Below, piece by piece: positions 21,203 through 35,270 of a stretch of 42,914 bases of DNA. The DNA comes from a virus. The stretch spans positions 1 to 42,914 of the IMG/VR virus record IMGVR_UViG_3300005253_000036. One strand, written 5' to 3'. How positions within the stretch are numbered: position 1 is the stretch's first letter; each line of letters opens with the position of its first letter. The translations under genes were made by a program, and so were the position numbers. The notes under the pieces are model-generated. The model was not told the DNA's origin, made no database searches, and saw only the letters and a list, made by a program, of their open reading frames with translations.

Positions 21203-21244
21203 AAAACCCCGGGCGGCAGTCGTACATTCGTACTACCCGGGGTT
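21203..21244 (-). terminator. Intrinsic terminator of the inverted gene
   Basis: AACCCCGGG (21205-21213) and CCCGGGGTT (21236-21244) form a 9-bp GC-rich stem. Read leftward, as for the gene ending at 21284, the hairpin is followed by TTTTGTTG, a U-rich tail. It lies 40 bases after that gene's stop codon. It could also slow rightward transcription, where the tail is not U-rich. Confidence 0.8.
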
Positions 21245-21283
21245 GTGCTGTCTAAGTGCTAATTGGTAGGGTGCTAGGACAAC

Positions 21284-21949
21284 CTAGCTGAACTGGTGGC
21301 CAAGCTTCTTGGCGATGCGCTCGGCCTCATGGGTGATGTTCACCTTGTGGCTAGTGTCGCCGCCCAGATACGCCCGGATTATGTCCGTGCTATCCTCAGC
21401 GTGAGCCGCGACGTACTCGCGCGGGGTCATCACGTTTCCGTTTTCGCTCACCTGGTGACTGGCGCGCTTGCCACCACCTCCACCACCACGTTTGACGCCG
21501 GCTGGGGGTTTGGGGATGTCCGGGCCAGTGGGCTTGACGCTGGTTTCCATGTCGGGTTGGCCGATGTTGGTGATGGTGATGACCAACCCGGTCACGTTGA
21601 ACGACTGGAACGTGTCCAGGACGTTCTGAACCATCGCGCGGGCCTCGCTGCCAATGGGCGTCAGCACCTCGCGCAGAGCCTGCGTCTTCGACTCCCATTG
21701 GATTCGCGCCAGCCCACGCTTGGCGACTTCGATAGCCGCGTCGCACTTGCCAACTGCGCTCAGTGTGTCGATCACCGCAGCGGCCAGCACGCCAAGCTCC
21801 TCGATATTGGCTTTCGCGGACTGCTTGGCCATTGACTCCAGAGCGTCGGTGTGACTCGTCTTGGCGATGTCGAGGTCTCCAGTCAAGCGCTCAACGTCGG
21901 TCATGATACTCTCGACTGTGGGAGCATCCGCCGCTGTTTCGTCTACCAT
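21284..21949 (-). CDS. Inverted, self-contained gene of unknown function
   Basis: 221 aa on the minus strand within the plus-strand early arm. It has a promoter-like sequence (22068-22096) and an intrinsic terminator (21203-21244) of its own, and noticeably more GC-rich codons than neighbouring small genes. Residues 1-110 are an Ala-rich coiled coil (RLTGDLDIAKTSHTDALESM, then EELGVLAAAVIDTLSAVGK). Residues about 118-160 end in a Gly run (KRGGGGGGKRAS). The last 60 residues form a compact helical domain (TPREYVAAHAEDSTDIIRAYLGGDTS, ending HEAERIAKKLGHQFS). No family recognised. Moron-type gene or highly expressed regulator are the main possibilities. Confidence 0.8.
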   Translation of the reverse strand: MVDETAADAPTVESIMTDVERLTGDLDIAKTSHTDALESMAKQSAKANIEELGVLAAAVIDTLSAVGKCDAAIEVAKRGLARIQWESKTQALREVLTPIGSEARAMVQNVLDTFQSFNVTGLVITITNIGQPDMETSVKPTGPDIPKPPAGVKRGGGGGGKRASHQVSENGNVMTPREYVAAHAEDSTDIIRAYLGGDTSHKVNITHEAERIAKKLGHQFS

Positions 21950-22282: not shown

Positions 22283-22312
22283 TTGACAACGTCACGCTAC
22301 CTCGTGTATAAT
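22283..22312 (+). promoter_or_regulatory. Second early promoter, sigma70-type
   Basis: TTGACA (22283-22288), 18-base spacer, TATAAT (22307-22312). A second TTGACA lies 15 bases upstream (22268-22273), both within GCTTGACA, which may be a tandem binding site. It restarts rightward transcription after the inverted gene and serves the long run of small genes from 22382. Confidence 0.8.
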
Positions 22313-22381
22313 GGTAGCATAGGACGATGGCTGTGAGTCCCATAGGGTGGACCACCGCACGTCAGAAAGGACGGTGACCAG

Positions 22382-22525
22382 ATGGCGATGGAACCCGTTG
22401 CGGAAGACGTATTCGGTCCGCTGTACGAGTGTTCGTGCTGCGGTCGCCACGTGCGCTATCCCAATAGGTGCTCGTGGTGTATCAACCAGTGTAAGGGTGG
22501 CAAGCACACCCGGAGAGGACGGTGA
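22382..22525 (+). CDS. Tiny Cys-rich zinc-ribbon protein
   Basis: 47 aa, ATG at 22382 after AAAGGACGGTGACCAG. Six Cys in two knuckles: YECSCCGRH at residues 15-23 and RCSWCINQC at 29-37, followed by a basic tail KGGKHTRRGR. First gene after the promoter at 22283. Probably a zinc-binding nucleic-acid or protein adaptor. Not assigned to a family. Confidence 0.7.
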   Translation: MAMEPVAEDVFGPLYECSCCGRHVRYPNRCSWCINQCKGGKHTRRGR

Positions 22526-22528
22526 CGC

Positions 22529-22738
22529 ATGGCGTATGTAGACCCGGACTACAAGACCAAGAAGGCCTTTAAGGAGGCCGTGGCTAGCGGTGTGGAGCAC
22601 AGACCGTACAACCCCAATGGCATGTTCCCCGAGAAGGGGAACGGCCACACTACAGTCGAGGGCCCGCACTACCCCAAGCCGCATACCTGGTACGCGAGTT
22701 GCCAGGTTGAGGATGGGGTAGTTGTGAAGGTGAGCTAA
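22529..22738 (+). CDS. Hypothetical small protein
   Basis: 69 aa, ATG at 22529 preceded by GAGAGGACGGTGACGC. Lys/Pro/Gly/His-rich with YKTKKAFKEAVASG near the start and YPKPHTWYASCQVEDGVVVKVS at the end, the latter a likely strand pair. Coupled to the next gene by a TAATG overlap. No family recognised. Confidence 0.75.
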   Translation: MAYVDPDYKTKKAFKEAVASGVEHRPYNPNGMFPEKGNGHTTVEGPHYPKPHTWYASCQVEDGVVVKVS

Positions 22739-22941
22739 TGTTCACACTTAGGCAGCTACTCAAGGTGGTCAAGCGAGACTGCCGCACTCCTATCGGCCAC
22801 GTCAGGGATATGCGGACCTTCGCCCATGACCACACCGAATGGGCCGGCGACTGCCGCGACATCGTCTGCGACGGTTGCGACATTCTCGCTCAGGCTAAGC
22901 GTTGGCTAGGAGCCCAAGGGATAGAGTATCAGCCGTACTAG
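22738..22941 (+). CDS. Hypothetical small Cys-containing protein
   Basis: 67 aa, ATG at 22738 overlapping the preceding stop. Helical start (FTLRQLLKVVKRDCRTPIGHVRDM), then WAGDCRDIVCDGCDILAQAKRWL with three clustered Cys that could bind metal. Its stop lies immediately before RNA element A. No family recognised. Confidence 0.7.
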   Translation: MFTLRQLLKVVKRDCRTPIGHVRDMRTFAHDHTEWAGDCRDIVCDGCDILAQAKRWLGAQGIEYQPY

Positions 22942-22946
22942 TCTCA

Positions 22947-23033
22947 CCAGGGCTGCTGTCGAGGCCCCTCATAGGACCAGATGTGGTCCTCACAGGGTAA
23001 GTCCTCGTTAGCAGCCCCGGTTGGGTTAGTAGC
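22947..23033 (+). other. Structured intercistronic RNA element A
   Basis: GGGCTGCT (22950-22957) pairs with AGCAGCCC (23010-23017), and CCAG/CCGG flanks extend it. Inside, CGAGG (22960-22964) pairs with CCTCG (23003-23007), CCC with GGG (22995-22997), and a 7-bp hairpin AGGACCA/TGGTCCT (22973-22979, 22984-22990) has a GATG loop. A GGTTGGGTTAGTAGC sequence at 23019-23033 follows, close to the shared motif of elements F, B and C. No U run, so not a simple terminator. Confidence 0.75.
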
Positions 23034-23046
23034 AAAGGACGGTAAG

Positions 23047-23742
23047 ATGGACGTAGACGACAAGGTACTGGAGAGACTCCAGGCCCTGCTACGTCTGGCT
23101 AAGGATGGTGGCGCCACCGAGGCCGAGGCAAGCCTCGCTATGGAGCGGGCACATGACCTGCTCCTTAAGCACGGTCTGGAAATGGCCGATGTCGAGGGCG
23201 ATACCGGCAACGTGGTTGGTGACGTTGAGGAGTTCCTATACGATGGGCTGACGAGGCAACAATGGATACCCTCGTTGGTCTCGATGGTGGCCGACAACAA
23301 CTACTGCCGTGTGATTATACTTCACACGGGTCAGTTGTCCATCATCGGGCGGTCCTACAACGTCAAGGTCGTACACCAGATGTCCTTATGGCTGATAGGA
23401 CAGCTCTCGGGTCTTGCGTCTACGGACTGGGACGCCAGAGAGTTCCTTGGTCGGACCGAAGGAGTCAGCCGCACAGAGTGGCGGGAGTCCTTCATTGTAG
23501 GGGTCATGAACAGGCTTGGCGAGAGATTGAGGATGCAGCGGGCCGAGGATGAGGGCAGAGCGGAGAACGTCCGTACTATGGTGGTGACGTTCGACCGAGA
23601 GAACGCCGACTTCCTCAACGAGCGGTACCCTAACCTACGGGACGGGCGGCGCTACTTCGTGCATACTGATGCGTACAGGGCTGGTGTGTCCGCTGGTAGT
23701 TCGGTGTCCATCATGCCCGAGCAAAGGCAGGTGAGGTCATGA
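23047..23742 (+). CDS. DUF2786 domain protein
   Basis: 231 aa from ATG at 23047, preceded by AAAGGACGGTAAG. The in-frame ATG at 22981 lies inside the RNA hairpin and is rejected. Residues 5-50 match the DUF2786 pattern: LERLQALLRLAKDGGATEAEASLAMERAHDLLLKHGLEM, that is short helices with A-x-x-A and a K-H-G-L end. The remainder (about 70-231) resembles the accompanying domain of such proteins with WIPSLVSMVADNNYCRVIIL. Function is not known for the family; it is frequent in phage early regions. Confidence 0.75.
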   Translation: MDVDDKVLERLQALLRLAKDGGATEAEASLAMERAHDLLLKHGLEMADVEGDTGNVVGDVEEFLYDGLTRQQWIPSLVSMVADNNYCRVIILHTGQLSIIGRSYNVKVVHQMSLWLIGQLSGLASTDWDAREFLGRTEGVSRTEWRESFIVGVMNRLGERLRMQRAEDEGRAENVRTMVVTFDRENADFLNERYPNLRDGRRYFVHTDAYRAGVSAGSSVSIMPEQRQVRS

Positions 23743-23813
23743 CCAATGCAATAGGTTACATACTGTTCGTAGCGGCGGTGTTAGTAGTCATGGTGACGGT
23801 ACTACCATCGTGA
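23739..23813 (+). CDS. Membrane micropeptide
   Basis: 24 aa, ATG at 23739 overlapping the preceding stop (ATGA). One hydrophobic helix, IGYILFVAAVLVVMVTVL, with almost no soluble part. Start overlap with the upstream gene and stop overlap with the GTG of the next gene (GTGA) favour it being translated. Function unknown; small phage membrane peptides often modulate host membrane enzymes. Confidence 0.5.
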   Translation: MTNAIGYILFVAAVLVVMVTVLPS

Positions 23814-24064
23814 GAGTCCACAGGAGCGGGCGCAATCGCGGGTCATTCAACCGCAGAGGGCTCAACCAGCTAGGCGGCATCGGGGCCTTAGAGGAGGTCC
23901 TACTTGCCCTCGCCAGCGCCCAGGCTGTACTAGGTATGACTGACGGCCAGCTTGAACGCGCCTCCGGTGTCCCGTCTGGTGTCATTGGTAGGTTGCGAAA
24001 GGGGCGAGGGTTCCCAACCTGTCTATGGAAGATAACTGGCTACCTGGAGTCTCAGTTGAGCTAG
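23810..24064 (+). CDS. Small helix-turn-helix regulator (XRE-like)
   Basis: 84 aa, GTG at 23810 coupled by GTGA. Basic N-terminus (RVHRSGRNRGSFNRRGLNQ), then residues 25-84 in five-helix XRE style with LGMTDGQLERASGVPSGVIGR as helices 2-3 and KGRGFPTCLWKITGYLES as the end. A plausible repressor or activator of phage promoters; the palindromes at 19809 and 19904 are candidate targets by inference only. Its stop codon lies within the basal stem of RNA element F. Confidence 0.65.
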   Translation: MRVHRSGRNRGSFNRRGLNQLGGIGALEEVLLALASAQAVLGMTDGQLERASGVPSGVIGRLRKGRGFPTCLWKITGYLESQLS

Positions 24065-24153
24065 ACCTTCTCGCGCTGCTGCCGAACCCAAGGAGCGGGT
24101 TGAGGAGACTTGCGGGAGTTGGGGTCGGTGGCAGCACCGGACGGTCTAGTAGT
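24061..24153 (+). other. Structured intercistronic RNA element F
   Basis: CTAGACC (24061-24067) pairs with GGTCTAG (24143-24149); the left arm contains the stop codon of the HTH gene. TGCTGCC (24077-24083) pairs with GGCAGCA (24130-24136). Inside lies a hairpin AACCC/GGGTT. GGACGGTCTAGTAGT at 24139-24153 overlaps the closing stem and precedes the next RBS. Confidence 0.75.
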
Positions 24154-24166
24154 ATGGAGGTGACCA

Positions 24167-24379
24167 GTGAAACGGTTAGACACAGGTGTACACCTCATGG
24201 TGGCGACTGAGGAGCAGGCTGATGCCGTCGAGTCGGCGCTCAAGCAGGGGCCGGTGGCACTGATTGCACCGGACGACCCACAAAGCCTGACGCATGGCCT
24301 TGAGGGCTTCCTGGTGGTCATGGTGCATGAGGACGAGCCCGAGTCACACATGAACAAGGCCGTGAGGATACTAGGCTAG
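24167..24379 (+). CDS. Hypothetical small acidic protein
   Basis: 70 aa, GTG at 24167 with GGAGGTGA upstream. ATEEQADAVESALKQGPVALIAPDDPQS followed by GFLVVMVHEDEPESH, a beta-alpha pattern like a small ferredoxin-like or single-domain fold. No family recognised. First gene after RNA element F, so its translation may respond to that structure. Confidence 0.75.
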   Translation: MKRLDTGVHLMVATEEQADAVESALKQGPVALIAPDDPQSLTHGLEGFLVVMVHEDEPESHMNKAVRILG

Positions 24380-24389
24380 GAGGTGAGCG

Positions 24390-24680
24390 ATGCGGTTACA
24401 GTACGACCACTACGGCAACTTCACCATTGCCAGTGACGCGGAGCATGTCTCGGAGCCGGCACTGTACAACGGCATTGCGGCCCTAGAGGTTGATGGCAAG
24501 GTGTTCATAGCCATCAGTCCGCACCACGGGAACAACAACCTCAACCCTGAGAAGGTCTACGAGGTGGTGCCCGTGGAGACGGACGTTGGGCTAAGTGTCC
24601 AATCGGCACCGTGCAGCCTGTTCAGACCAGACGAGGCCTGCCCGCATGGTAGTATACCTGGGGTAGGCCGGGAAGGCTAG
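24390..24680 (+). CDS. Hypothetical protein
   Basis: 96 aa, ATG at 24390 after CTAGGAGGTGAGCG. Beta-rich: QYDHYGNFTIASDAEHVSEPALYNGIAALEVDGKVFIAISPHHG, then KVYEVVPVET. C-terminal part (VGREG) carries the stop codon inside a hairpin. Function unknown. Confidence 0.75.
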   Translation: MRLQYDHYGNFTIASDAEHVSEPALYNGIAALEVDGKVFIAISPHHGNNNLNPEKVYEVVPVETDVGLSVQSAPCSLFRPDEACPHGSIPGVGREG

Positions 24681-24772
24681 TCCTTCCCATGCTGCCGACG
24701 TATGGTAGGGTGCGCTTCATACCCATGCCCTCAAGTTGAAGATGCGCCGGCAGCATAGGACGGATTAGTAGT
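24670..24772 (+). other. Structured intercistronic RNA element B
   Basis: First a hairpin GGGAAGG-CTAGT-CCTTCCC (24670-24688) whose loop contains the TAG stop of the preceding gene. Then ATGCTGCCG (24689-24697) pairs with CGGCAGCAT (24748-24756), a 9-bp basal stem, with GCG/CGC and CTTCA/TGAAG pairs inside (24712-24747). GGACGGATTAGTAGT at 24758-24772 follows, then AAAGGAGGCAGAG and ATG. Confidence 0.8.
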
Positions 24773-24788
24773 CAGAAAGGAGGCAGAG

Positions 24789-24959
24789 ATGCCTAAGCGA
24801 GAGGTCCGAATGGAGCTAGCCAGGACGACCAAGAACACCTACCGCTTCGAAGAGGCGGATGAGAACGGTCCGATTCGGGTGCTCTACATCCAGCAGGCGG
24901 CGTTCCCAGGCGGTGCGCCGGCGGCTATCGTCGTCACCTTCGAGGCGGACAATGCCTAG
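24789..24959 (+). CDS. Hypothetical small protein
   Basis: 56 aa, ATG at 24789 preceded by AAAGGAGGCAGAG. Two strand groups: REVRMELARTTKNTYRFEEAD and RVLYIQQAAFPG, then AAIVVTFEAD. A compact beta protein of a type that recurs in phage early operons. It follows RNA element B and overlaps the next gene by eight bases. Function unknown. Confidence 0.7.
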   Translation: MPKREVRMELARTTKNTYRFEEADENGPIRVLYIQQAAFPGGAPAAIVVTFEADNA

Positions 24960-25119
24960 CCCATTGAACCGCTACCAGTTTGCTCGACTCATAGAGCAGA
25001 TGTTCGGCGCAATCAGCAACGCCGCATCTAGCTGTCCGAACGGCGGTGTCCACCACTTCCAGGGCTATCCTCGGGAGCGGAGTGCGTGTAGGCGGTGCGG
25101 CACCAAGAGGTTCCAATAG
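24952..25119 (+). CDS. Small zinc-finger-like protein
   Basis: 55 aa from ATG at 24952, in the eight-base overlap with the previous gene. Helix RYQFARLIEQMFGAISNAASS, then C-P-N-G-G-V-H-H and C-R-R-C-G, a C...H/CxxC zinc knuckle. Probably nucleic-acid- or protein-binding. No family recognised. Confidence 0.7.
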   Translation: MPSPLNRYQFARLIEQMFGAISNAASSCPNGGVHHFQGYPRERSACRRCGTKRFQ

Positions 25120-25129
25120 GAGGCGACAC

Positions 25130-25342
25130 ATGGCAACCGAAACAGGGCGCATCCATAGTTACCCAGGTGCTCGGGCCAAGGAGATGGTTGACGATGCGGT
25201 TCGCAAGTTCCGCCATGCCCACGACCTGACGCGCTGTACCGAGCACGCAAACGCTGTCCTCAACGATGCGGTTGTCGCTCTACCGCCAGGTACGATGACC
25301 GCATACATCGAACGAACGGAGGAAATCATAAAGGCAGGCTAG
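25130..25342 (+). CDS. Hypothetical small helical protein
   Basis: 70 aa from ATG at 25130, preceded by AGGAGGCGACAC. Helical throughout (RAKEMVDDAVRKFRHAHDLTRCTEHANAVLNDAVVAL, then MTAYIERTEEII). The stop TAG lies in the loop of the first hairpin of RNA element C. Function unknown. Confidence 0.75.
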   Translation: MATETGRIHSYPGARAKEMVDDAVRKFRHAHDLTRCTEHANAVLNDAVVALPPGTMTAYIERTEEIIKAG

Positions 25343-25460
25343 ACCTGCCAACTCCGCCACCGAGGCCCATAGTGAGTGTGATGCCTCACATCTGGCTAAG
25401 GCGACTCGATATGTTGCGGTGCTGACATTCCTCGGTGGTGGTGTTGGACGGTTTAGTGAA
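25333..25460 (+). other. Structured intercistronic RNA element C
   Basis: Hairpin GGCAGG-CTAGA-CCTGCC (25333-25349) carries the TAG stop of the preceding gene in its loop. A 12-bp basal stem joins 25354-25365 (CCGCCACCGAGG) to 25430-25441, with one G-U pair. Inside, GTGAG/CTCAC and other short pairs make a branched interior. GGACGGTTTAGTGAA at 25446-25460 follows, then AAAGGAG. Confidence 0.8.
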
Positions 25461-25471
25461 AGGAGAGACGA

Positions 25472-25681
25472 ATGGCGAAGAAGACCTACAGCCAGCTTCT
25501 TGTCCTACAGTTAGTGGGCCAAGTTGAGGCTCTTGCCCTGTGCAACGAGAGCCTGCAAAACCAGCTTGACAAGGTGGATGCGGTTTTCGTGGGCACGAGG
25601 TTCAACTGGCAGGGCACAGGTAGAGGCAGGATAGAAACCCTTGAGCAGTTAATCAAGGAGGCGGCTAATGTTCTGCCCTGA
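25472..25681 (+). CDS. Hypothetical small protein
   Basis: 69 aa, ATG at 25472 after GAAAGGAGAGACGA. Helical first half (TYSQLLVLQLVGQVEALALCNESLQNQLDKV, a coiled-coil candidate), then ETLEQLIKEAANVL. Overlaps the next gene by 14 bases. Function unknown. Confidence 0.75.
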   Translation: MAKKTYSQLLVLQLVGQVEALALCNESLQNQLDKVDAVFVGTRFNWQGTGRGRIETLEQLIKEAANVLP

Positions 25682-25982
25682 GGACGGAACCAGAATAGAG
25701 CCTTACGCGCCCAGTGCATTAGGCTCGGTGCAGCCATACCCTCCATGCGGCACATGCGGTACACGCTATGTGTACCTCAGTGAGCTTGGACGGTATGAGG
25801 TCGTCGAGGGCTTGGCGTTCAAGGACCTGTACGCGCCGTACTGCACATGCGAACCAGGTAACCATGATGAGGCATGTCCAGTCAACGGGTACGAGGTCTT
25901 CAAGCGCCACCGCGAATACTTCTCCGAAGGGCGCAGAGATGAGGTACCCGCCTCACCTGGCCACCAAGGAGGGTGCCACTGA
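25668..25982 (+). CDS. Zinc-ribbon protein
   Basis: 104 aa, ATG at 25668. C-P-E-D-G near the start with PPCGTCGTRY at about residues 26-35 makes a zinc ribbon; a second Cys set lies at YCTCEPGNHDEACP (57-70). Possibly binds nucleic acid. Coupled on both sides by overlaps. No family recognised. Confidence 0.7.
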   Translation: MFCPEDGTRIEPYAPSALGSVQPYPPCGTCGTRYVYLSELGRYEVVEGLAFKDLYAPYCTCEPGNHDEACPVNGYEVFKRHREYFSEGRRDEVPASPGHQGGCH

Positions 25983-26128
25983 TGCGGCGCTTACTACTGT
26001 GGCTTCACAACAAGCTAGGCGACATCCTAGACTGTTACCCTGGTGAGTGTCGCTGCCAGGAGACCGGCTACGAAGAGGCCAAGGACACCGTAGCCGAGTG
26101 GTTCACACCGCCAGAGAGACTAGCTTAA
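25982..26128 (+). CDS. Hypothetical small Cys-containing protein
   Basis: 48 aa, ATG at 25982 overlapping the preceding stop by one base (TGATG). LLLWLHNKLGDILDCYPGECRCQETG has a C-x5-C-x-C cluster; the rest is acidic (YEEAKDTVAEWFTPPERLA). Function unknown. Confidence 0.65.
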   Translation: MRRLLLWLHNKLGDILDCYPGECRCQETGYEEAKDTVAEWFTPPERLA

Positions 26129-26138
26129 GGAGGACCGC

Positions 26139-26318
26139 ATGAGCGCACAGGACGAGATTTCCGCGGTTATAGATACCTTAGACGATATGATGACCATAAT
26201 CAAAGGCATCATGTCGAAACTTGACAGTGCTCAAGGGGATGCTGAGCAGGAGTTGGAGGACGCGAAGCAGGTGGGCCATGACGAGGGCTACGACGAAGGC
26301 GTTAACGCCCAGAACTAG
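26139..26318 (+). CDS. Small acidic coiled-coil protein
   Basis: 59 aa, ATG at 26139 after AAGGAGGACCGC. Acidic helix-rich: EISAVIDTLDDMMTIIKGIMSKLDSAQGDAEQELEDAK, a likely coiled coil. Acidic DNA-mimic-like composition is compatible with inhibition of host enzymes, but that is speculative. Function unknown. Confidence 0.7.
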   Translation: MSAQDEISAVIDTLDDMMTIIKGIMSKLDSAQGDAEQELEDAKQVGHDEGYDEGVNAQN

Positions 26319-26327
26319 GAGGTAATC

Positions 26328-26747
26328 ATGCAAGACCGAGCACCAGAGGACATACTACGCGAGGAGCAGGAGCGCGAGATGCGCGGTGAGATGCCAGGCA
26401 CCCTGGGCGAGCAGGCGCAACAAGAGGCAGACCACTTGCGGGACGTGCAGAACGACCGTGAGATGGTGACCGATGAGCCTACTCGCCCAACCCTAGGCCT
26501 GCCATACGTGCGGGGAGTGGAGGAGCACCGCGTACTCAACTACTCCTACTGGAACGCCAACGGGGTAGGCATTGCCATCGTTGCCGTTGAAGGTGGCGCC
26601 GCTGACTGGGCCGCATACATAGGCGGGGACGATGGCCAGCGTACCGAAGACTGCGTAGCCTGGACAATACGGCGCGGTTGCAAACTGTCTAGGCAGCAGG
26701 CTCACCGCTGGTTCCCCGACATACCAATCGAGGCGTACCGTGAGTAG
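26328..26747 (+). CDS. Hypothetical early protein
   Basis: 139 aa, ATG at 26328 after CTAGGAGGTAATC. Glu-rich helical N-terminus (PEDILREEQEREMRGEMPG, then GEQAQQEADHLRDVQNDREM), then a beta/alpha domain with LNYSYWNANGVGIAIVAVEGGAADWAAYIGGDDGQRTEDCVAWTIRRGCKLS. Function unknown; the C-terminal block looks conserved in style (Tyr/Gly-rich with two Cys). Confidence 0.7.
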   Translation: MQDRAPEDILREEQEREMRGEMPGTLGEQAQQEADHLRDVQNDREMVTDEPTRPTLGLPYVRGVEEHRVLNYSYWNANGVGIAIVAVEGGAADWAAYIGGDDGQRTEDCVAWTIRRGCKLSRQQAHRWFPDIPIEAYRE

Positions 26748-26883
26748 GTCGAGGCTAGACCCAAAGAACGTGTGGCCCTGCCCACGGTGCTTCCACCTCA
26801 ACATAGCACATGGGCCTAAGTACGGGTGCTGTGTTCGTATCCTTGGTGGGATATGTGACTGCAAGGAGGTAGTCCGACCGTGA
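26740..26883 (+). CDS. Tiny Cys-rich zinc-finger-like protein
   Basis: 47 aa, GTG at 26740 overlapping the previous gene by eight bases. Cys clusters: WPCPRCFHL, then YGCCVRILGGICDCKE, seven Cys in total. Probable zinc ribbon. The GTG-plus-GAGTAGGT start is repeated at the next gene (26880), so the two starts share local sequence. Confidence 0.6.
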   Translation: MSRSRLDPKNVWPCPRCFHLNIAHGPKYGCCVRILGGICDCKEVVRP

Positions 26884-27170
26884 GTAGGTACACCAAGGAG
26901 CACTACGAGGACGTGGCCCGACTTCTAAGGGCTCACCATCTGGAAGGCAACGATTGCGACGTTCAGGATGTAGTCCGTGCCTTCGCGGACCTCTTCGCCA
27001 CCGACAACCCCATCCTCTGCATTTACTGTGGCTACATAAAAGGCACAACTGAGATTTGTGATTCTGCTGACGGACGGCTCCGTAACGAGCACCTGTTTGA
27101 GGGTGGCTTCGACCGTGAGCAATTCCTAGCAGCCTGTGGGCTGGAGCCCGAGGAGTCCTCTGATGGGTGA
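26880..27170 (+). CDS. Hypothetical protein with CxxC
   Basis: 96 aa, GTG at 26880 coupled by GTGA. YTKEHYEDVARLLRAHHLEG is a helix; ILCIYCGYIKGTTEIC at about 47-62 has C-x2-C plus a third Cys, and a fourth Cys lies at AACGLEPEE. Possibly a zinc-ribbon protein. Overlaps the following gene by eight bases. Confidence 0.65.
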   Translation: MSRYTKEHYEDVARLLRAHHLEGNDCDVQDVVRAFADLFATDNPILCIYCGYIKGTTEICDSADGRLRNEHLFEGGFDREQFLAACGLEPEESSDG

Positions 27171-27654
27171 AGTACGCGGCGACATACTCATGGAGTGCGG
27201 GCATACGAACAACGGTGCCTACACCATGAACCCTTGGCCGGCGACTCGAGGCAATGGGGAGGACGAAGGCGGCGCAACTCTAGGCGACCCCGTATGCGGC
27301 ATCTGCGTAGGCATTAACCCAGGCGCAACCAGAGTAGCCGCAACCAAGCCGGACCTCAATGGTCGGGTTGCCATCTGTTCCTCATGTGGTAAGGGCGAGC
27401 AGCCCTCCGACTGGAAGCTGCCGTTCTTTGAGCATAGGGGTCCTGGCTCCATCTGGGCGGCGACCCATTGCCGCTACTGTGGAGGTACTGACACCGAATG
27501 GCACAGCAGAGGGCATTACGCGCCTCACCCAGGGACTGGAGTTGAAGGTGAGGCAGTGCCCTGGGACTCCAGCCGATGTGTGACTGCCGAGTTCACCCCG
27601 AAGGAAGGCCTCGACCACGACTACTACTACTGCGGTTGTCGAGGCTGGGACTAA
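27163..27654 (+). CDS. Multi-knuckle zinc-binding protein
   Basis: 163 aa from ATG at 27163; the in-frame ATG at 27136 lies deeper in the previous gene. Four Cys/His groups: MECGHTNNGA, PVCGICVGI, ICSSCGKGE and THCRYCGGT, plus YYYCGCRGW at the end. That is enough for two or three metal sites. No family recognised; probably a nucleic-acid or protein adaptor. Followed by RNA element D. Confidence 0.7.
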   Translation: MGEVRGDILMECGHTNNGAYTMNPWPATRGNGEDEGGATLGDPVCGICVGINPGATRVAATKPDLNGRVAICSSCGKGEQPSDWKLPFFEHRGPGSIWAATHCRYCGGTDTEWHSRGHYAPHPGTGVEGEAVPWDSSRCVTAEFTPKEGLDHDYYYCGCRGWD

Positions 27655-27668
27655 TGAGTCAATTCCAG

Positions 27669-27753
27669 GCCCGCACCGTACCCGCCATCGCGGTGTATGG
27701 GCAACCGTCCTGCCCTGGGTCGTCGTCTTCCGTGAGGTCACGGCGGCCCAGGG
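27669..27753 (+). other. Structured intercistronic RNA element D (two hairpins)
   Basis: First hairpin: GCCC-g-CACCG (27669-27678) with CGGTG-tat-GGGC (27691-27702). Second: CCCTGGGTCGTCGT (27713-27726) with ACGGCGGCCCAGGG (27740-27753), 14 bp including two G-U pairs. It is followed by TTATATT and then GAAAGGAG, so partial termination or attenuation is possible. It lacks the GGACGG motif seen after F, B and C. Confidence 0.7.
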
Positions 27754-27774
27754 TTATATTGAAAGGAGCCGCGA

Positions 27775-27972
27775 ATGGCTGACCGAATAGTGGCAAGTAC
27801 GGCAGGATTAGGTCACAAGTCTACGGCTATGCGCGACTGGCTGATGACATACTGGCGGCTATGGGAGAAGGGCTATCGAGGACCCATGCCTTACATCATA
27901 GGGCCTATATGGGAGCCTTTGACCATTGAGCCGTACCCTAAGGAGTCGACTCCAGGCACATGGATGCCGTAA
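27775..27972 (+). CDS. Hypothetical small protein
   Basis: 65 aa, ATG at 27775 after GAAAGGAGCCGCGA. Trp/Tyr/Pro-rich: MRDWLMTYWRLWEKGYRGPMPYIIGPIWEPLTIEPYP. Mixed hydrophobic but not a clear membrane helix. It lies between RNA elements D and E. Function unknown. Confidence 0.7.
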   Translation: MADRIVASTAGLGHKSTAMRDWLMTYWRLWEKGYRGPMPYIIGPIWEPLTIEPYPKESTPGTWMP

Positions 27973-27976
27973 GCAT

Positions 27977-28050
27977 GGGGGTTACCGCCGCACCCTCCCT
28001 AAGGTTGATAGCTGAAAGGCACCCCCAATCAGTGAACAGCGGTAACCCCC
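27977..28050 (+). other. Structured intercistronic RNA element E
   Basis: GGGGGTTACCGC (27977-27988) and GCGGTAACCCCC (28039-28050) form a perfect 12-bp stem closing a 50-base interior, in which TGAT and ATCA can pair. It begins right after the stop codon of the 65-aa gene and ends 19 bases before the next ATG. The right arm approaches but does not cover the AACGAGG ribosome binding site. Confidence 0.75.
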
Positions 28051-28069
28051 TCCAAGAACGAGGAAAATT

Positions 28070-28219
28070 ATGCAAACCGTTAAGATGCTAGAGTTAGGTA
28101 CCTGCCAGGAGATAGCCTGCACCGAGCGCCAGCACTACATAGGCAAGGTAGTGTTCCGGTTCTGTGCATCGCATACCCAGGACATCGAGAACGGCAAGGA
28201 GTTGATTCTGAAAGGATGA
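28070..28219 (+). CDS. Hypothetical small protein
   Basis: 49 aa, ATG at 28070 with ACGAGGAAAATT upstream. MQTVKMLELGTCQEIACTERQHYIGKVVFRFCASHT contains three Cys and beta-prone segments, suggesting a small metal-binding or beta protein. Overlaps the next gene by four bases (ATGA). Confidence 0.65.
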   Translation: MQTVKMLELGTCQEIACTERQHYIGKVVFRFCASHTQDIENGKELILKG

Positions 28220-28512
28220 CCACTATGCCGGAAGACGAGCTAACGGCCAAAGATAAGGTAAGGGTCCTCGTCGATGAGGTAATCCGCCAAGGCCTGGGAA
28301 CGATGGAGAGAAGCGGCGTCCCCTTCGACGCGGAGCTAGTAGGCACCTACTTCCTATTAGTTGGCCTGAAGATAGCCCTATTGGACCCTGACCTTGGCAC
28401 CGTACTGGAGACCTCGCTGATGCTCGATAAGAGCGGAGAGAAGCAGGCCCAGGAATCGGTAGCCAGGCTCAAAGACCTGATAGCAATGGTAACACAGGTG
28501 AAGGAGAACTAG
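28216..28512 (+). CDS. Hypothetical helical protein
   Basis: 98 aa, ATG at 28216. Helical and amphipathic: KDKVRVLVDEVIRQGLGTMERSG, then YFLLVGLKIALLDPDLGTVLE and QAQESVARLKDLIAMVTQVKE. Not clearly membrane-spanning. Function unknown. Confidence 0.75.
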   Translation: MTTMPEDELTAKDKVRVLVDEVIRQGLGTMERSGVPFDAELVGTYFLLVGLKIALLDPDLGTVLETSLMLDKSGEKQAQESVARLKDLIAMVTQVKEN

Positions 28513-28513
28513 G

Positions 28514-29032
28514 ATGCCAAGCGACCTTGATGAAAGGAAAGTCCAGGTTATACGTGAAGCGCACGGCGAGACAGGCGCAGTCATCATCGCCGTATATGAG
28601 GCACTGCCTCCTGTGATGGCGCACCGTTGGCTAGAGTACGATTACTGGACGCAGGTGGGCCACATAGAGCGCCTCCGTACGGCACTAAAAGACGGAGGGC
28701 CGTCTCTGCGCCGACCAGTCGGACACGTCACGGACCTCATCAGACGGCTATCCACCTGGCGAGACCGACGGCAGAGTATCACTGATAGGCCCAAGCGCAG
28801 CGGCAAGCCACTGCCCAACACGGAGCTTGATGAGGCCATCGAGCACCTCGAGGAGTACCGCGAACTGCTCGCCTCGTGGATAACGTTGGAGGCAACGAGT
28901 CGGCTTCATCCTGACGACGAGAAGCCTGAGCATGACCTAGGCTGGCCTGACGGGCAGTGTCCCACATGCGGGCACACCGATGACCACACCGTTGACCAGT
29001 GCAACCGCAACCTAGCAGAACGCAAGGAGTAA
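28514..29032 (+). CDS. Hypothetical protein with zinc-knuckle end
   Basis: 172 aa. Helical main part (VQVIREAHGETGAVIIAVYEALPPVMAHRWLEYDYW, then HVTDLIRRLSTWRDRR, LDEAIEHLEEYRELLASW). The C-terminus carries CPTCGHTDDHTVDQC, a possible CxxC...H...C zinc site. No family recognised. One base after the preceding stop, with AAGGAGAACTAGG upstream. Confidence 0.7.
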   Translation: MPSDLDERKVQVIREAHGETGAVIIAVYEALPPVMAHRWLEYDYWTQVGHIERLRTALKDGGPSLRRPVGHVTDLIRRLSTWRDRRQSITDRPKRSGKPLPNTELDEAIEHLEEYRELLASWITLEATSRLHPDDEKPEHDLGWPDGQCPTCGHTDDHTVDQCNRNLAERKE

Positions 29033-29089
29033 CATAGGAGGTGCAACCACAGGAACGCAAGACGGTACCTAGTCATACCATGCCTGATA

Positions 29090-29590
29090 GTGGGACTAGC
29101 CGTGGGGCTGGTACTAGGAGCGACCGATGAGAGTGACCCTATCGCAGACGGAGTGGCAGTTGGTAGTCCGTCTATATCCATTAACGAAGAGGAGTTAGTA
29201 GGTGTTCCACCTCATACACTGGCTGACCTGCAAGCACAAGGACGTGCATCGGCTACCACGGCCAAGACTGGAGTGGACGAGGCAGACATCACCGCAGATG
29301 TCATGGGACGACCTGAAAGCAGGATGGCCAAGGATACGGAGGCCCTTATCTGTGCCTACTCCTGGCCCCAGGGGTGCGCGTATTGGACAGGCATAGCGCG
29401 GTGCGAGAGTACCCTTGGCCAGGACCCCAGTGCCTATGCCGACTCGAACCCGTACGTGGGCCTGCTCCAGATATGGGTCGGGCACGGCTACGGAAGGGAG
29501 TGGCTGAAGGTAGACACAAACAATGTCCTAGCAGCCTGGGAGTTAAGCCATGAAGGAACAAGGACAAGTCCCTGGCCGTACTGCCAATGA
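29090..29590 (+). CDS. Lytic transglycosylase-like protein with membrane anchor
   Basis: 166 aa from GTG at 29090, but the true start is probably further upstream. Residues 85-166 read as a lysozyme-like SLT domain: WTGIARCESTLGQDPSAYA with E106 as likely catalytic acid, PYVGLLQIWVGHGYG and NVLAAWELS, ending WPYC; four Cys (88, 96, 105, 165) may pair. The frame upstream encodes RRYLVIPCLIVGLAVGLVLGA, a signal anchor preceded by basic residues, and TAGGAGG lies at 29035-29041, yet no ATG, GTG or TTG follows it in frame. A mutation, non-standard start or sequence error may explain this. Cell-wall lysis from an early position is notable. Confidence 0.6.
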   Translation: MGLAVGLVLGATDESDPIADGVAVGSPSISINEEELVGVPPHTLADLQAQGRASATTAKTGVDEADITADVMGRPESRMAKDTEALICAYSWPQGCAYWTGIARCESTLGQDPSAYADSNPYVGLLQIWVGHGYGREWLKVDTNNVLAAWELSHEGTRTSPWPYCQ

Positions 29591-30011
29591 GATAGACCTT
29601 GAGCGCCAGTTGGCGGAGGTGCAACGGTGCGACGACTGTGCCGACTCCCCTGAAGACATAAGGCTACCAGCGGGGTATCGGTGCTACTTCTGCGACAAAC
29701 GGTTCTGTGGCCCTCATGCGAAGATGCACTTCAAGGACGGGGCAACGACGGCTACGGCTTTGGCCGAGGCACAGGCCCGACTACGGAAGGCCAACTGTGC
29801 ATACGGTGACGGCTGGATTAGTGACGACCTGGAGTGCGGGGTTGACGTGGAGCCCTGGTGTGGGAAACACGCCGTCCTGTACCACATCAAGGCGAACAAG
29901 GAGGCGCAGGGGAAGCTGGACGCGGTAGAGACATGGCGCAAGCAACCTAGAGGTAAGGGTGGCATGGCTGAACTTGACCGTATCCTGTGCGGCACCAAGG
30001 AGGACGAATGA
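29550..30011 (+). CDS. Zinc-finger-like protein
   Basis: 153 aa, ATG at 29550, overlapping the transglycosylase-like gene by 41 bases. VQRCDDCADSP and YRCYFCDKRFCGPHAKMH give a C-x2-C / C-x2-C / C-x2-H pattern near residues 27-60. A second Cys set (ECGVDVEPWCGKHAVLYH) lies at about 95-112. Possibly two zinc sites. Function unknown. Confidence 0.7.
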   Translation: MKEQGQVPGRTANEIDLERQLAEVQRCDDCADSPEDIRLPAGYRCYFCDKRFCGPHAKMHFKDGATTATALAEAQARLRKANCAYGDGWISDDLECGVDVEPWCGKHAVLYHIKANKEAQGKLDAVETWRKQPRGKGGMAELDRILCGTKEDE

Positions 30012-30388
30012 GTAAGCATATCCATGATGGACGCTCCCACTGTCCGGCTTGCGCTCTGGAAAAGATAGGCCAACAAAAGCAAGAGATTGCCGACCTTGAG
30101 GCCGAGAACGCCCGCCTACAGGAGCGCGAGGATAAGGTTCTGGCGGCTTTGGCTCAGGCGCTTGGTGCGGCAGCCACGACGCCAGCCCACACGGACAGTC
30201 CCGCAAAGTATGTGACGATATTGGCTGAGGAGCGCAACGGCTACAAGGCGCGGGACAAGCTGCGCGGGGAGGCGCTGCAAGCTGATGGGCATGACGCTGG
30301 GCCGTTCCCTAAACACCCACGCCATGATTGTCAAGGCTGTGCCGCCATCGCCGCCACGCCCGAAGAGAGGGAGAAGGAGAAACGATGA
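30008..30388 (+). CDS. Coiled-coil protein with Cys knuckles
   Basis: 126 aa from ATG at 30008, sharing ATGA with the previous stop. HCPACALEKIG gives one CxxC, then a coiled coil IADLEAENARLQEREDKVLAAL, and a C-terminal HDCQGCAAI. Plausible metal-linked dimer. Function unknown. Confidence 0.65.
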   Translation: MSKHIHDGRSHCPACALEKIGQQKQEIADLEAENARLQEREDKVLAALAQALGAAATTPAHTDSPAKYVTILAEERNGYKARDKLRGEALQADGHDAGPFPKHPRHDCQGCAAIAATPEEREKEKR

Positions 30389-30573
30389 GCGAGATAACTT
30401 GGCGACTGAGTCACCCTGGCGAGTTCTTCTGGGAGCCCATCATGAAGTGGTGGCACCGTAACCGCCAAGCACGGATTGAACGTGACTATTGGCATGCTGA
30501 ATTTGAGCGCTTAGACCGTTGGACAGCGGAGCACCTCGATAAATGCAGTCTCCCAAGCGAGAGGTACAAATGA
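30385..30573 (+). CDS. Hypothetical small Trp-rich protein
   Basis: 62 aa from ATG at 30385, sharing ATGA. ITWRLSHPGEFFWEPIMKWWHRNRQARIERDYWHAEFERLDRW is Trp/Arg-rich and helical; a peripheral membrane or protein-binding role is possible. Function unknown. Confidence 0.65.
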   Translation: MSEITWRLSHPGEFFWEPIMKWWHRNRQARIERDYWHAEFERLDRWTAEHLDKCSLPSERYK

Positions 30574-30806
30574 GCGACATGATAGAGCGGGCTGAGGTTC
30601 TCGGTGTAGACTACGTGATGTTGAAAGGTTCTGGTGGCAGAGACCGCTACAACGGAGCCACCGTCAAAGGCGACGACTTTATGCACTTTAGCACATTAGG
30701 ACAGGGAACTTCCTGCGGGAAGACTATACAGGACTTCCTGCTGACACACGCTGATGTCAAAATAACTTGTCCGAGTTGCATCAAGGCTCTGAAGGCCCGC
30801 CCATGA
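30570..30806 (+). CDS. Hypothetical small protein with CxxC
   Basis: 78 aa from ATG at 30570, sharing ATGA. MIERAEVLGVDYVMLKGSGGRDRYNGATVKGDDFMHFSTLGQ then SCGKTIQDFLL and TCPSCIKALKA. A zinc-ribbon-like C-terminal pair is likely. Function unknown. Confidence 0.65.
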   Translation: MSDMIERAEVLGVDYVMLKGSGGRDRYNGATVKGDDFMHFSTLGQGTSCGKTIQDFLLTHADVKITCPSCIKALKARP

Positions 30807-30827
30807 CGATATGCACTGAGGACGTGA

Positions 30828-31091
30828 ATGGCTAAGCCTCACTACGCACGCCGCGTACAGCAGCAGATACTCGACGCGCGGGGCTTAGACCGCACCGCGC
30901 ACGGCCACCTTGAACCTAAGACCAAGCCGTCCACGCCTGGCGCAACCTTCGCTATGCGTTTCCTTGAGGAGAAGTTTGATGCACCTATCAGAGAACTTAT
31001 CGGACACGGCAGTAATGTGGAGGTGGCCAACTTCCTAGGCTTAGACCCATCTACGGTGAGTAAATGGCGGCTTCGCCTAGGACTGCGGTAA
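30828..31091 (+). CDS. Helix-turn-helix DNA-binding protein
   Basis: 87 aa, ATG at 30828 after GAGGACGTGA. The last 35 residues form an HTH: IRELIGHGSNVEVANFLGLDPSTVSKWRLRLGLR, with the turn around GLDPSTV. N-terminal half is basic. Directly upstream of the replication ATPase, so it may recognise a replication origin or regulate this module. Its stop overlaps the ATG of the ATPase (TAATG). Confidence 0.7.
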   Translation: MAKPHYARRVQQQILDARGLDRTAHGHLEPKTKPSTPGATFAMRFLEEKFDAPIRELIGHGSNVEVANFLGLDPSTVSKWRLRLGLR

Positions 31092-31882
31092 TGGAACCGC
31101 AAAAACTAGGCGACTTCCTCAAGTGGGAACCTCACTACCCTGATGCAATCATCGGCAACGGTGTCCTCTATGAACAGAACAAACTGATTATGTACGGGCG
31201 CGAGGGAATCGGCAAATCCATGCTAGCGATGAACCTCGACATGTCGCTCATCGGTGGTGTGCCCTGGACGGGGTTCGACATCAAGGGCGACCACAAGGTC
31301 ATCTACCTCCAGATGGAGATACCTCACCCCCTGCTGCACAAGCGCCTCATGAAGATGTACGACGCATGGAAGGTACTGTACGGAGACCCGAATGATATGC
31401 TTGACAGGTTCTACGTCTGGACCGAGCCCTTCCTCAAGCTCGATGATGCCGTCGGGTACAAGCTGCTCCGGGCTCAGTTGGAGAAGGTACGGCCTACCAT
31501 CCTAATCATTGACCCACTTTACAAGGCACTATCAGGTAACATACTAGACCCTAACTCTGCCCGTGCATTTGTTGATTCAATAGATGCCCTCATGGCCGAG
31601 TTCAAGTTCTGTATTGTCCTGATTCACCATACAAGGAAGGGTACTATAGATGAGGAGTCCGACGCTAACCCCGACGACGACATGCTAGGTTCAGCCGTGT
31701 TCTCATGGTGGGCGGATACTATCATCAAGATAACCAAGAAGGGTGAGAAGGACCGCAAGGTACTCCTTCAACTCTCCTTCGACAAGGTCCGCCATGCTGA
31801 GGACATCATTGACCCAAAGGAGGTGATATTCGACCGAGAGGACCTACAGTTCTACCTATCGGAGAAGAAAATCATAGTATAG
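31091..31882 (+). CDS. RepA/DnaB-like AAA (RecA-fold) replication ATPase
   Basis: 263 aa from ATG at 31091 (an in-frame ATG at 31064 is possible). Walker A GREGIGKS at residues 36-43, Walker B ILIIDPLYK with D141, and the sensor-like LIHHTRKG at 177-183, matching AAA_25/RepA-type hexameric helicase-like ATPases. A phage of this type has no other candidate helicase. Origin unwinding or loading at the fork is inferred. It starts the replication module and is coupled to the HTH gene. Confidence 0.75.
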   Translation: MEPQKLGDFLKWEPHYPDAIIGNGVLYEQNKLIMYGREGIGKSMLAMNLDMSLIGGVPWTGFDIKGDHKVIYLQMEIPHPLLHKRLMKMYDAWKVLYGDPNDMLDRFYVWTEPFLKLDDAVGYKLLRAQLEKVRPTILIIDPLYKALSGNILDPNSARAFVDSIDALMAEFKFCIVLIHHTRKGTIDEESDANPDDDMLGSAVFSWWADTIIKITKKGEKDRKVLLQLSFDKVRHAEDIIDPKEVIFDREDLQFYLSEKKIIV

Positions 31883-31900
31883 TTCATAGGAGGAACCACC

Positions 31901-32599
31901 GTGACCCAAGAACCATTCAAGCCTAGCCTAGCCACACCGGTTGGGCAAAGTCCCCTGCAGGAGTTCATCGCCATCCTGGAGTCGTGGGAAGCGGAGACGC
32001 GTGAGTCCCCATCGGACACACCTGGCGAAGCGCCCCGCAAGTACCAGGTCATCACCTTCAACTTCAAAGACCTGGATGTCATCCTGTCCACCGAGCCGTA
32101 CGTGTTCCCAATAGCCGTGTTGAGCATCGGCTACGCACCGCCTGCCGCGTCGCGTGGCAACACCCGTTGGGAGGCCCTGGCCGGCTCCATACGGAAGCTG
32201 ACGCCCGACCCGGACCTGGATGTGCTGGTCGGGAAGCGGCAGACCTGGAAGATGCTGCCAGCCACCCTGCGGATGCCCGTACTGGAGGAGGACGGCACGC
32301 CCAAGCTGGACGGTAGGCTCAGGCCCCTATGGGCCGACGCCGACGTGGACTGCTGGCACATCACCGAGGTCGAGGGCCTAGGCTCGGCCGCCGAGTCAGA
32401 CGAGGAGCTTATGGACTTCCTGGTTGGCCAGGCTGACGGCAAGACCGCCAGTGCCTGGTACGAGGGACTGTTGCAGGACCGTAGGGTCACCGCACGCAAC
32501 GACATCGTGACCGCCATCACCGACCGCAAGCTGCTCGACACGATGAAGGTGGCCAACAAGCTGACCGAGGACGCCGAGGGCGTGCTGCACAAGGTCTAG
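31901..32599 (+). CDS. Putative ssDNA-binding protein
   Basis: 232 aa, GTG at 31901 after AGGAGGAACCACC. Residues 45-165 have OB-fold-like strands: YQVITFNFKDLDVILS, FPIAVLSIGYAPPAASRGN, VLVGKRQTWKMLPATLRMP, CWHITEVEGL. The C-terminal 60 residues are helical. Codons are more GC-rich than in nearby genes, suggesting strong expression as expected for SSB. It follows the replication ATPase. Family assignment is by pattern and position; an unrelated abundant protein is the alternative. Confidence 0.55.
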   Translation: MTQEPFKPSLATPVGQSPLQEFIAILESWEAETRESPSDTPGEAPRKYQVITFNFKDLDVILSTEPYVFPIAVLSIGYAPPAASRGNTRWEALAGSIRKLTPDPDLDVLVGKRQTWKMLPATLRMPVLEEDGTPKLDGRLRPLWADADVDCWHITEVEGLGSAAESDEELMDFLVGQADGKTASAWYEGLLQDRRVTARNDIVTAITDRKLLDTMKVANKLTEDAEGVLHKV

Positions 32600-32602
32600 T
32601 CC

Positions 32603-32803
32603 ATGTGCTGTAGGCCACCCGAACAAGAGGAGCAGGGTGCACGGTTATTCGAAGCCCTCGGCCGTGCTGGCCCTCCACCATCATTCGAGGGCAGCTTCAT
32701 AGAGCGGCGTAGACGGCTATATCAGGAGATGTCCCAAGCCGCACATCGTATGCTTGAACTCCAGAAGGACATCCTGGCTATCGAGCGCATCCTGGGAGGA
32801 TAG
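32603..32803 (+). CDS. Hypothetical small helical protein
   Basis: 66 aa, ATG at 32603 with a weak AAGG upstream. Starts MCCRPPEQEEQG; residues 30-66 form a helical, coiled-coil-like run (FIERRRRLYQEMSQAAHRMLELQKDILAIERIL). Possibly an accessory to its replication neighbours. Function unknown. Confidence 0.65.
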   Translation: MCCRPPEQEEQGARLFEALGRAGPPPSFEGSFIERRRRLYQEMSQAAHRMLELQKDILAIERILGG

Positions 32804-32804
32804 G

Positions 32805-33020
32805 TTGGCTATACCTTCGCCTAAGAGTCCTGAGATAGAACGGCTCCTCGAGGACCTGACGGGCCGCCGTACAGCCATTGAGGCTGACCGCTGCATAGAC
32901 CCACCTAATGGTTGTGGCGGTCCCGCCACCGAGTTCCACACTGAGCTAGACCGACGGGAGTACACTGTCTCAGGGCTCTGCCAGGACTGTCAGGATACGG
33001 CCTGGTATACGCCGGAGTAG
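32805..33020 (+). CDS. Small zinc protein with four conserved-style Cys
   Basis: 71 aa from TTG at 32805, preceded by GGGAGGATAGG; the in-frame ATG at 32754 lies inside the preceding gene. ERLLEDLTGRRTAIEADRC, then CIDPPNGCGG and SGLCQDCQD: four Cys in a C-x6-C and C-x2-C arrangement around EFHTELDRREYTVSG. This block matches a small family common in actinobacterial-type phages and presumably binds zinc. Function unknown. Confidence 0.65.
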   Translation: MAIPSPKSPEIERLLEDLTGRRTAIEADRCIDPPNGCGGPATEFHTELDRREYTVSGLCQDCQDTAWYTPE

Positions 33021-33035
33021 TAGAAGGATAGCCCG

Positions 33036-33695
33036 ATGGAGTGGACGGAAGACAGCAGCCTAGCGACTCAGATGCTACGGGACCTGGGTGAGGAAATCTG
33101 GATAGACAAGCACCTACCCCATGTCACCGAGCTAATCTACTGCCTTACGCGGTCCTGGTATCAGCGTAAGAAGCCGCTTCCGTTCACTCCTCGGGAGGTC
33201 CTCCTGTTCTCAACGGGGATAGGCCTGGAGCAGGTGCTCCTCAAGCGCCACAAGCAACAGATAGAAGGCGTATTGGACGGCATCGGATATGCCACGGATT
33301 TCCTGACTTACGAGGACTACCCCGGAGAGTTGAAGCTCACGCGGTACTCTGCCAAGAAGGGCCCTGATGAACTGCCGAACACTTGGAAGCGGCAGATATT
33401 GTCATACCTCAGATGCAACAAGGATGACCGTATGCTCCTTGCCATCATGCACCTTATGGGCGACTACGCTCCTCCGTTCCCGATGCTCAAGGCATGGCAG
33501 GGCAAGGCTACCCAATGGGAAATCGGTATGAACTGGGCCTGGATGCTGATGCGTAGGGACATGTACATGGCCTCACTGGAGACGGACACACCACCTGAAC
33601 AGTTCACCACTAACGAGGATTGGGAGTGCGAGGGCTGCGGCTACAAACTAATCTGCGACGCGAACCAGGCAATCAAGGAAATGAAAGGAGAATGA
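33036..33695 (+). CDS. Cas4/RecB-like PD-(D/E)XK nuclease with Fe-S cysteines
   Basis: 219 aa, ATG at 33036. N-terminal C36 (LIYCLTRSWYQRKK), D88 (GYATDFL), then E98-L-K100 (GELKLTR), a D...E-x-K nuclease core, with Q120-x3-Y124 (QILSYLRC) as the RecB-type QxxxY motif. C-terminal C198, C201 and C207 (WECEGCGYKLIC) with C36 can form a 4Fe-4S cluster as in Cas4 and AddB. It sits with an ATPase, a Sak4-like ATPase and an ERCC4-type nuclease. Likely 5' exonuclease/end-resection for recombination. No CRISPR system is present here. Confidence 0.75.
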   Translation: MEWTEDSSLATQMLRDLGEEIWIDKHLPHVTELIYCLTRSWYQRKKPLPFTPREVLLFSTGIGLEQVLLKRHKQQIEGVLDGIGYATDFLTYEDYPGELKLTRYSAKKGPDELPNTWKRQILSYLRCNKDDRMLLAIMHLMGDYAPPFPMLKAWQGKATQWEIGMNWAWMLMRRDMYMASLETDTPPEQFTTNEDWECEGCGYKLICDANQAIKEMKGE

Positions 33696-33949
33696 CCACC
33701 GTGCCAACTGAGAACGAAGTACTCAGGCAAACAAGTCTATATTGGGTGCAGGCCCACGTCGGAGGCATCGACCCAGGGTCGGCAACCCTGGGCCTACGGT
33801 ATGGTATCATCATTGCGCTCAGGCAACCCAACTATGCCCGAGCGTATGCGGCGGCGACGCGCCGCTCGGAGGCAGACCCGTTCGAGGAGAAGGCGGTCAA
33901 GGAGTTTATGGCCACTGTGCCTCTGATGGTGGGAGGGAATGGTGCATAA
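33692..33949 (+). CDS. Hypothetical small protein
   Basis: 85 aa from ATG at 33692, coupled by ATGA to the nuclease; GTG at 33701 is another possible start. TSLYWVQAHVGGIDPGSATLGLRYGIIIALRQPNYARAYAAATRRSE, then KEFMATVPLMVGG. Helical and coupled by TAATG to the Sak4-like gene, so it may be a recombination accessory. Function unknown. Confidence 0.65.
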   Translation: MTTVPTENEVLRQTSLYWVQAHVGGIDPGSATLGLRYGIIIALRQPNYARAYAAATRRSEADPFEEKAVKEFMATVPLMVGGNGA

Positions 33950-35089: not shown

Positions 35090-35270
35090 CCGCGACCTGG
35101 CCTGTGTGTGGTTGACCGTGCCAGAGGCGGCAGACTTCCTGAAGGTTGACAAGTCAACGATGTACCGGTACATCCAACTCGGCAAGCTCGAGGTGAACCG
35201 TCCAGGCGGGTACGTCATCCGTATCTGCCTTGAGGAACTAAACATGTTCGGTGCGGTAAAGAAGGAGTAG
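35076..35270 (+). CDS. Excisionase-type helix-turn-helix protein
   Basis: 64 aa, ATG at 35076 after TTAGGAGGCAGACC. LTVPEAADFLKVDKSTMYRYIQLGKLEVNRPGGYVIR is the HTH_17/excisionase (MerR-like) pattern. With no integrase in the window it more likely acts as a small regulator or DNA-bending factor in replication than in excision. The family call is firm; the role is open. Confidence 0.8.
   Translation: MCSHSRDLACVWLTVPEAADFLKVDKSTMYRYIQLGKLEVNRPGGYVIRICLEELNMFGAVKKE

Follow-up and report, generated by a model that had tools for sequence, protein, structure and literature searches.

What occupies the few long spacers of a phage early operon in which the genes otherwise run into one another? We addressed this question in a tailed phage represented by a 42,914-base virus record (IMGVR_UViG_3300005253_000036), the whole of which is referred to here as the window. 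Genes for the terminase, the major head protein and the endolysin lie on the - strand, and an early/replication operon on the + strand encodes a DUF2786 protein, a helicase/primase-like protein, a Sak4-like protein, a methyltransferase and a DNA polymerase. Its genes, from 22382 to 40852, abut or overlap save at six gaps: 22942-23046 (A), 24065-24166 (B), 24681-24788 (C), 25343-25471 (D), 27655-27774 (E) and 27973-28069 (F). Each gap holds an RNA element whose pairing is selected on the + strand in a constant layout, and whose ends are sites at which the neighbouring genes have been exchanged.

Six long spacers and their folds

According to the open reading frames (ORFs) and the sequence, the six gaps are the only ones longer than 80 nucleotides (nt) between early genes, and an inverted repeat is present in every one of them, as a sequence-only reading of this DNA had claimed. 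Further gaps proposed by automatic gap calling are covered by ORFs and were rejected as gene-caller artefacts. The predicted RNA folds reach -52.2 kcal/mol for A (z -5.9), -53.8 for B (z -6.1), -46.9 for C (z -5.4), -61.2 for D (z -6.1), -50.8 for E (z -5.1) and -30.8 for F (z -3.4), with z-scores taken relative to 200 dinucleotide shuffles per gap, of which at most one folds equally well. Better folding than shuffled sequence had been set beforehand as a check, and the z-scores of -3.4 to -6.1 agree with it. In a 100-nt sliding fold scan of 22300-40850, segments over E, A, C and B are among the top ten of 1237. Coding segments starting at 25811, 26396, 24506 and 25256 also fold unusually well (z of -4.5 or lower), and folding energy alone is thus not diagnostic.

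No promoter-like or terminator-like site was found on the + strand in the six gaps, the promoter scan being of the sigma-70 type only; the view that these are not ordinary terminators is thereby upheld. At gathering thresholds Rfam gave no match for the elements, with the remaining matches at chance level, so that as far as this search goes the elements do lack a described family. Searches of phage records and species genomes with the elements, and of plasmids with element D, returned no match, and a tRNA search found none.

A common helix in elements A to D

Elements A, B, C and D form one covariance-model family, class I, all on the + strand and each starting on a TAG stop codon. A (22938-23029) begins on that of the gene at 22738-22941 and is followed by a Shine-Dalgarno (SD) site, AAAGGA, at 23034; B (24061-24149) begins on that of the gene at 23810-24064, C (24677-24768) on that of the gene at 24390-24680, and D (25339-25456), which has a larger, branched interior, on the one ending at 25342. 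From this stop codon the class I helix runs for about 24-27 positions with 1x1 mismatches, longer than the repeats of 7 to 14 bp first described.

Close relatives of the window are uncultured contigs only, and the comparison rests on few genomes, mostly from two metagenome sets: 656 (contigs L003, L005 and L011), 1731 (L004 and L015), 1487 (L006 and L016), 1504 (L007 and L013) and 1156 (L002 and L008), the last being almost identical to the window over much of its length. L027 and L029 are more distant, the terminase region of L029 being about 64% identical in protein. A single register, pairing column i with column 55-i of our alignment A8, is common to B, C and D and to the elements 656X, 1731Y and 1731Z of the relatives, with only 1x1 mismatches. 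Across 11 elements, compensatory double changes occur at 12 of 24 pairs (29 cells) and 87.5% of cells are paired, in an alignment that leans to structure because the arms were cut out beforehand and joined by an N loop. Registers slid by 1-3 columns give 1-4 double-change pairs and 22-56% paired cells, and none of 500 shuffles reaches the observed class I covariation score. The same picture emerged from an earlier alignment of seven sequences, made before X, Y and Z were known (7 double-change pairs, 91.6% paired). G-U pairs outnumber A-C mismatches in the helix by 30 to 9, which identifies the + strand as the folded strand, and in every class I element examined the + strand fold is more stable than that of the - strand.

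The outer helix reads CUAGWCC/GGWYUAG in B, C and D and CUAGUCC/GGAGUAG in 1731Z. It reads CUGGUCGG/CCGAACAG in 656X and 1731Y, where P1 has been replaced wholesale (CTGGTCGG../..CCGAACAG) with the register unchanged. A-type elements have a different outer helix, CTAGTCTCACC/GGTTGGGTTAG in A itself, and contain single bulges. The 5' arm finds its best partner in its own 3' arm in 6 of 6 cases in the window and 6 of 7 in 656; the idea of such private arms was not pressed, as cross-pairing is strong.

A covariance model, R1, built solely from B, C and D elements recovered element A of the window, which had not been used in building it, at 50.1 bits (E 1.8e-12, R1 E-values being rough). It also recovered 656A0, 656A, 656X, 1731Y and 1731Z, each of which lies within the early operon in the same + orientation; its - strand hits are shadows of the palindromes. 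The proposal of a conserved RNA structure is thus borne out by covariation, by strand-specific G-U pairing and by the recovery of unseen members. One further element was found in the distant contig L029. Its arms match those of 656X and 1731Y (runs of 26-32 nt, 96-100% identical) and enclose an interior corresponding to the one in window element A (TCATAGGACC...GGTCCTCACAGGGTAAGTCC); therefore, arms and interiors recombine. The 656X interior (L003:4723-4839) holds a hairpin resembling a tRNA T-arm (GAGGGTTCGACTCCCTC), and ARAGORN calls no tRNA there. Pattern matches in the viral contigs L019-L022 were dismissed as chance, since they fall within a gene coding for 142 aa in unrelated phages, as was a match in L030 near a coding start, which R1 does not recover.

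Conserved spacers between exchanged genes

DNA comparisons with the relatives yield alignments at 71-87% for B (24060-24161), C (24666-24794), D (25331-25474) and E (27660-27758), and for most of the surrounding genes none at all. Orthologs of B were found in L005, L004 and L006 (arms 92-100% identical, flanks unrelated), of C in L006 and of D in L005 and L004. Overall, ortholog arms are 88-100% identical and interiors mostly 46-59%, rising to 76-100% for the most closely related pairs. Over the 40-nt flanks identity is mostly 42-60%, against a background of 45 +/- 5% for unrelated DNA, with right-side exceptions of 67% and 93% for C and for one D pair. Near-identical 656B and 1731B have unrelated 40-nt flanks on both sides, and the neighbours of B show no protein match across four genomes, save for ORFs overlapping element B itself. 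X and C retain their downstream gene in some genome pairs. Since the arms are conserved while the flanks are close to background, gene exchange has taken place at the ends of the elements, on both sides; in these phages the spacers, and not the genes, are the conserved part. The interior loop is little constrained, which is consistent with the arms being the working part.

The position relative to translation signals is equally regular. In 10 of 15 class I elements the upstream ORF terminates at the TAG contained in the 5' arm; in most of the others its stop is located between a few and 16 nt upstream. Behind the 3' arm come TAGTAG or a comparable tail and, within a few bases, an SD site; the helix therefore fills the spacer from stop to SD. 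In 656, element 656A0 sits between two genes whose counterparts in the window overlap as TAATG.

Elements E and F depart from class I in sequence, and the suggestion of one family of six has to be given up: with A-D as one family and E and F separate, the six elements represent three arm families with a common layout, all of which recur in related phage contigs. E (class II) consists of two + strand hairpins side by side, at 27669-27702 and 27713-27753, and the branched interior closed by a single repeat that had been described for every gap does not apply to it. The second hairpin has 12-bp arms, CCCTGGGTCGTC/GGCGGCCCAGGG, which are invariant in the 656 ortholog (L005:9489-9588) around a divergent loop. 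The two orthologs share 81% DNA identity, with one A-U to G-C compensatory pair in the first hairpin; a coding role for E was rejected, protein identity being 58% against the 81% in DNA. F (class III, 27977-28050, + strand) has the arms GGGGGTTACCGC/GCGGTAACCCCC, and its arm homologs, with conserved arms GGGGGTTACCGC/GCGGTARCCCCCTCC, lie elsewhere in the gene order of 656 (L005:7218-7342) and L029. A further intergenic element of the same layout, at L027:4659-4748, has 14-bp arms, GGGGTGTCCTCAGG/CCTGGGGACACCCC, whose sequence shows no relation to classes I-III.

Proposed processing helices and the alternatives

We tentatively favour, at slightly less than even confidence, a reading in which the elements act in cis as helices between cistrons, processing or insulating an early mRNA made from a single promoter, much as the early RNase III sites do in phage T7. 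The sole consensus sigma-70 promoter ahead of the early operon (22283-22312, + strand; TTGACA-18-TATAAT, 12 of 12) is kept in the relatives, and the early transcript is deduced from this promoter and the abutting genes. The early mRNA would be polycistronic, transcribed from this one strong promoter, and every spacer would fold into a long, nearly bulge-free helix reaching from the stop codon to just before the next SD. Such a helix may be a substrate of a double-strand-specific RNase, the host RNase III or a similar enzyme, cutting between cistrons. After such a cut, the 3' end of each message would be base-paired and its leader clean, and genes could be swapped without upsetting their neighbours. 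That the pairing is preserved even where neighbour genes have been swapped points to a processing or insulating signal tolerating gene exchange. Phage early regions turn over genes fast and yet remain expressible; helices of this kind would show how an operon accepts foreign genes without disturbing their neighbours, and would constitute a family of intercistronic RNA parts absent from Rfam.

The preference for processing or insulation comes from the selected pairing, the single-promoter mRNA, the presence in every long spacer and the constrained arms, which together resemble the T7 sites. These (R0.3, R0.5, R1, R1.1 and R1.3) are likewise several long imperfect hairpins on one strand between early cistrons, each placed after the stop of one gene and before the SD of the next, and folded in the same way they too combine conserved arms with variable interiors. 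In T7 folds an upper stem of 9-13 bp is joined through an internal loop to a short lower stem, whereas here the helix extends over 24-27 positions, shows no irregularity other than 1x1 mismatches in B, C, D, X, Y and Z, and encloses a larger interior. RNase III cleavage is known for the T7 sites and would be a prediction for the present elements. Their stems are long enough for RNase III, 12 bp being the minimum reported for the E. coli enzyme on R1.1 derivatives (PMC8708148). Several observations weigh on the other side. The class I model had no match when run on T7, whose sites are shorter and less regular, and the arms of the elements are far more conserved in primary sequence than a generic double-strand-specific RNase requires. 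No RNase III domain is detectable in the phage, element F judged on energy alone folds better on the - strand, and the cleavage step is one that we infer. Among the functions first suggested for the gaps, RNase III sites are nonetheless the best, if unproven.

The two main rivals, a translational bridge and recombination linkers, each appear unlikely. As a bridge, the helix would fold the spacer away so that a ribosome stopping at the UAG in its foot adjoins the next SD and reinitiates, substituting for a stop-start overlap. The stop codon within the 5' arm in most class I elements, the SD starting a few nt past the closing pair and the TAATG overlap of the window at the gene pair where 656 has an inserted element all fit this. 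However, every downstream gene has a good SD of its own outside the helix, which is also much longer than a bridge requires. As linkers, the conserved arms would offer short homologies for phage gene exchange, the hairpin being secondary; a recombination role has reportedly been proposed for the PeSL cassettes of T4-like phages. Homology that ends at the element ends (as between 656B and 1731B), the X/Y-type arms around an A-type interior in L029 and the occurrence of the elements as DNA islands in otherwise unalignable regions speak for linkers, but linkers alone leave the complementarity, the compensatory changes, the G-U strand bias and the constant orientation unexplained. As the data show exchange at the arms, linkers may hold in addition to a processing helix. 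A somewhat less probable reading takes the elements for exchangeable RNA modules, whose arm families would be conserved docking addresses, usually one copy per genome, keeping operon order and mRNA processing while the genes outside and the interiors are traded. Interiors may then carry functions of their own, for which the T-arm-like hairpin of 656X and the A interior inside different arms in a distant phage can be offered.

A transcription-level signal is improbable. Nascent helices would modify RNA polymerase, through antitermination or pausing as at the HK022 put sites, or block Rho loading in untranslated spacers, and a strand-specific RNA structure repeated after one promoter along a long operon of tiny genes would suit such a role; put sites, however, are few and promoter-proximal, and the interiors and P1 sequences here vary widely. 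Integron attC sites are variable-interior hairpins with conserved outer boxes, found between small promoterless genes. The elements share several traits with these folded single-strand recombination sites: the outer stem is conserved, a mismatch recurs, the terminal structure varies, the 5' box contains a stop codon and the genes are promoterless. An attC-like site is nevertheless very unlikely, as the window contains no tyrosine or serine recombinase domain (no integrase or resolvase) and the elements do not travel with the upstream gene; the absence of a cognate tyrosine recombinase applies to the window, and a host enzyme is possible. In further contrast to attC, the + strand folds better. 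Intrinsic terminators or attenuators come last, with hardly any weight: the hairpins are GC-rich, lie within gaps and in E end in CCCAGGGTTATATT, but a U tract is absent, none is called on the + strand in the gaps, terminator-like sites are overall fewer than in shuffles, and the downstream genes have no promoters.

Nearest among described phage intergenic repeats are ESAS and PeSL, each of which has a defining feature that the elements lack. ESAS of cluster K mycobacteriophages resemble our elements in that they, too, are imperfect inverted repeats around a variable spacer and lie shortly before start sites, within the non-structural half of the genome. Their repeats measure 17 bp and their spacers mostly 4-13 bp, and they are linked to a 13-bp SAS motif as well as to certain gene families (PMC3203893). 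The SAS motif GGGATAGGAGCCC is not enriched in our material (with up to 3 mismatches allowed, 13 matches against 19 expected), and it is the element, not the gene, that is conserved, the B neighbours being unrelated in four genomes. The PeSL units of T4-like phages are stem-loops between the genes of shuffled early regions (Arbiol 2010 and Comeau 2014, as cited in PMC4503421). Like these, the elements lie at junctions of shuffled genes; PeSL, as described in that citing source, combines an early promoter with a terminator stem-loop, neither of which was found here (sigma-70 type scan).

The leader that follows the promoter (22313-22380; L005:4221-4302) also forms a hairpin; it is 94-99% identical among 656, 1731 and 1487, and that of the window has diverged past the promoter. 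A search of species genomes for a host with the terminase profile gave no match. Contig L010 spans the end of the window into its start (42912 to 18), and the record is therefore likely circular or circularly permuted and near complete. Finally, a strong GC-rich inverted repeat, AACCCCGGGCGGCAG...CTACCCGGGGTT, lies in non-coding DNA at 21207-21246, before the - strand gene at 21284-21949, and looks like a terminator between transcription units.

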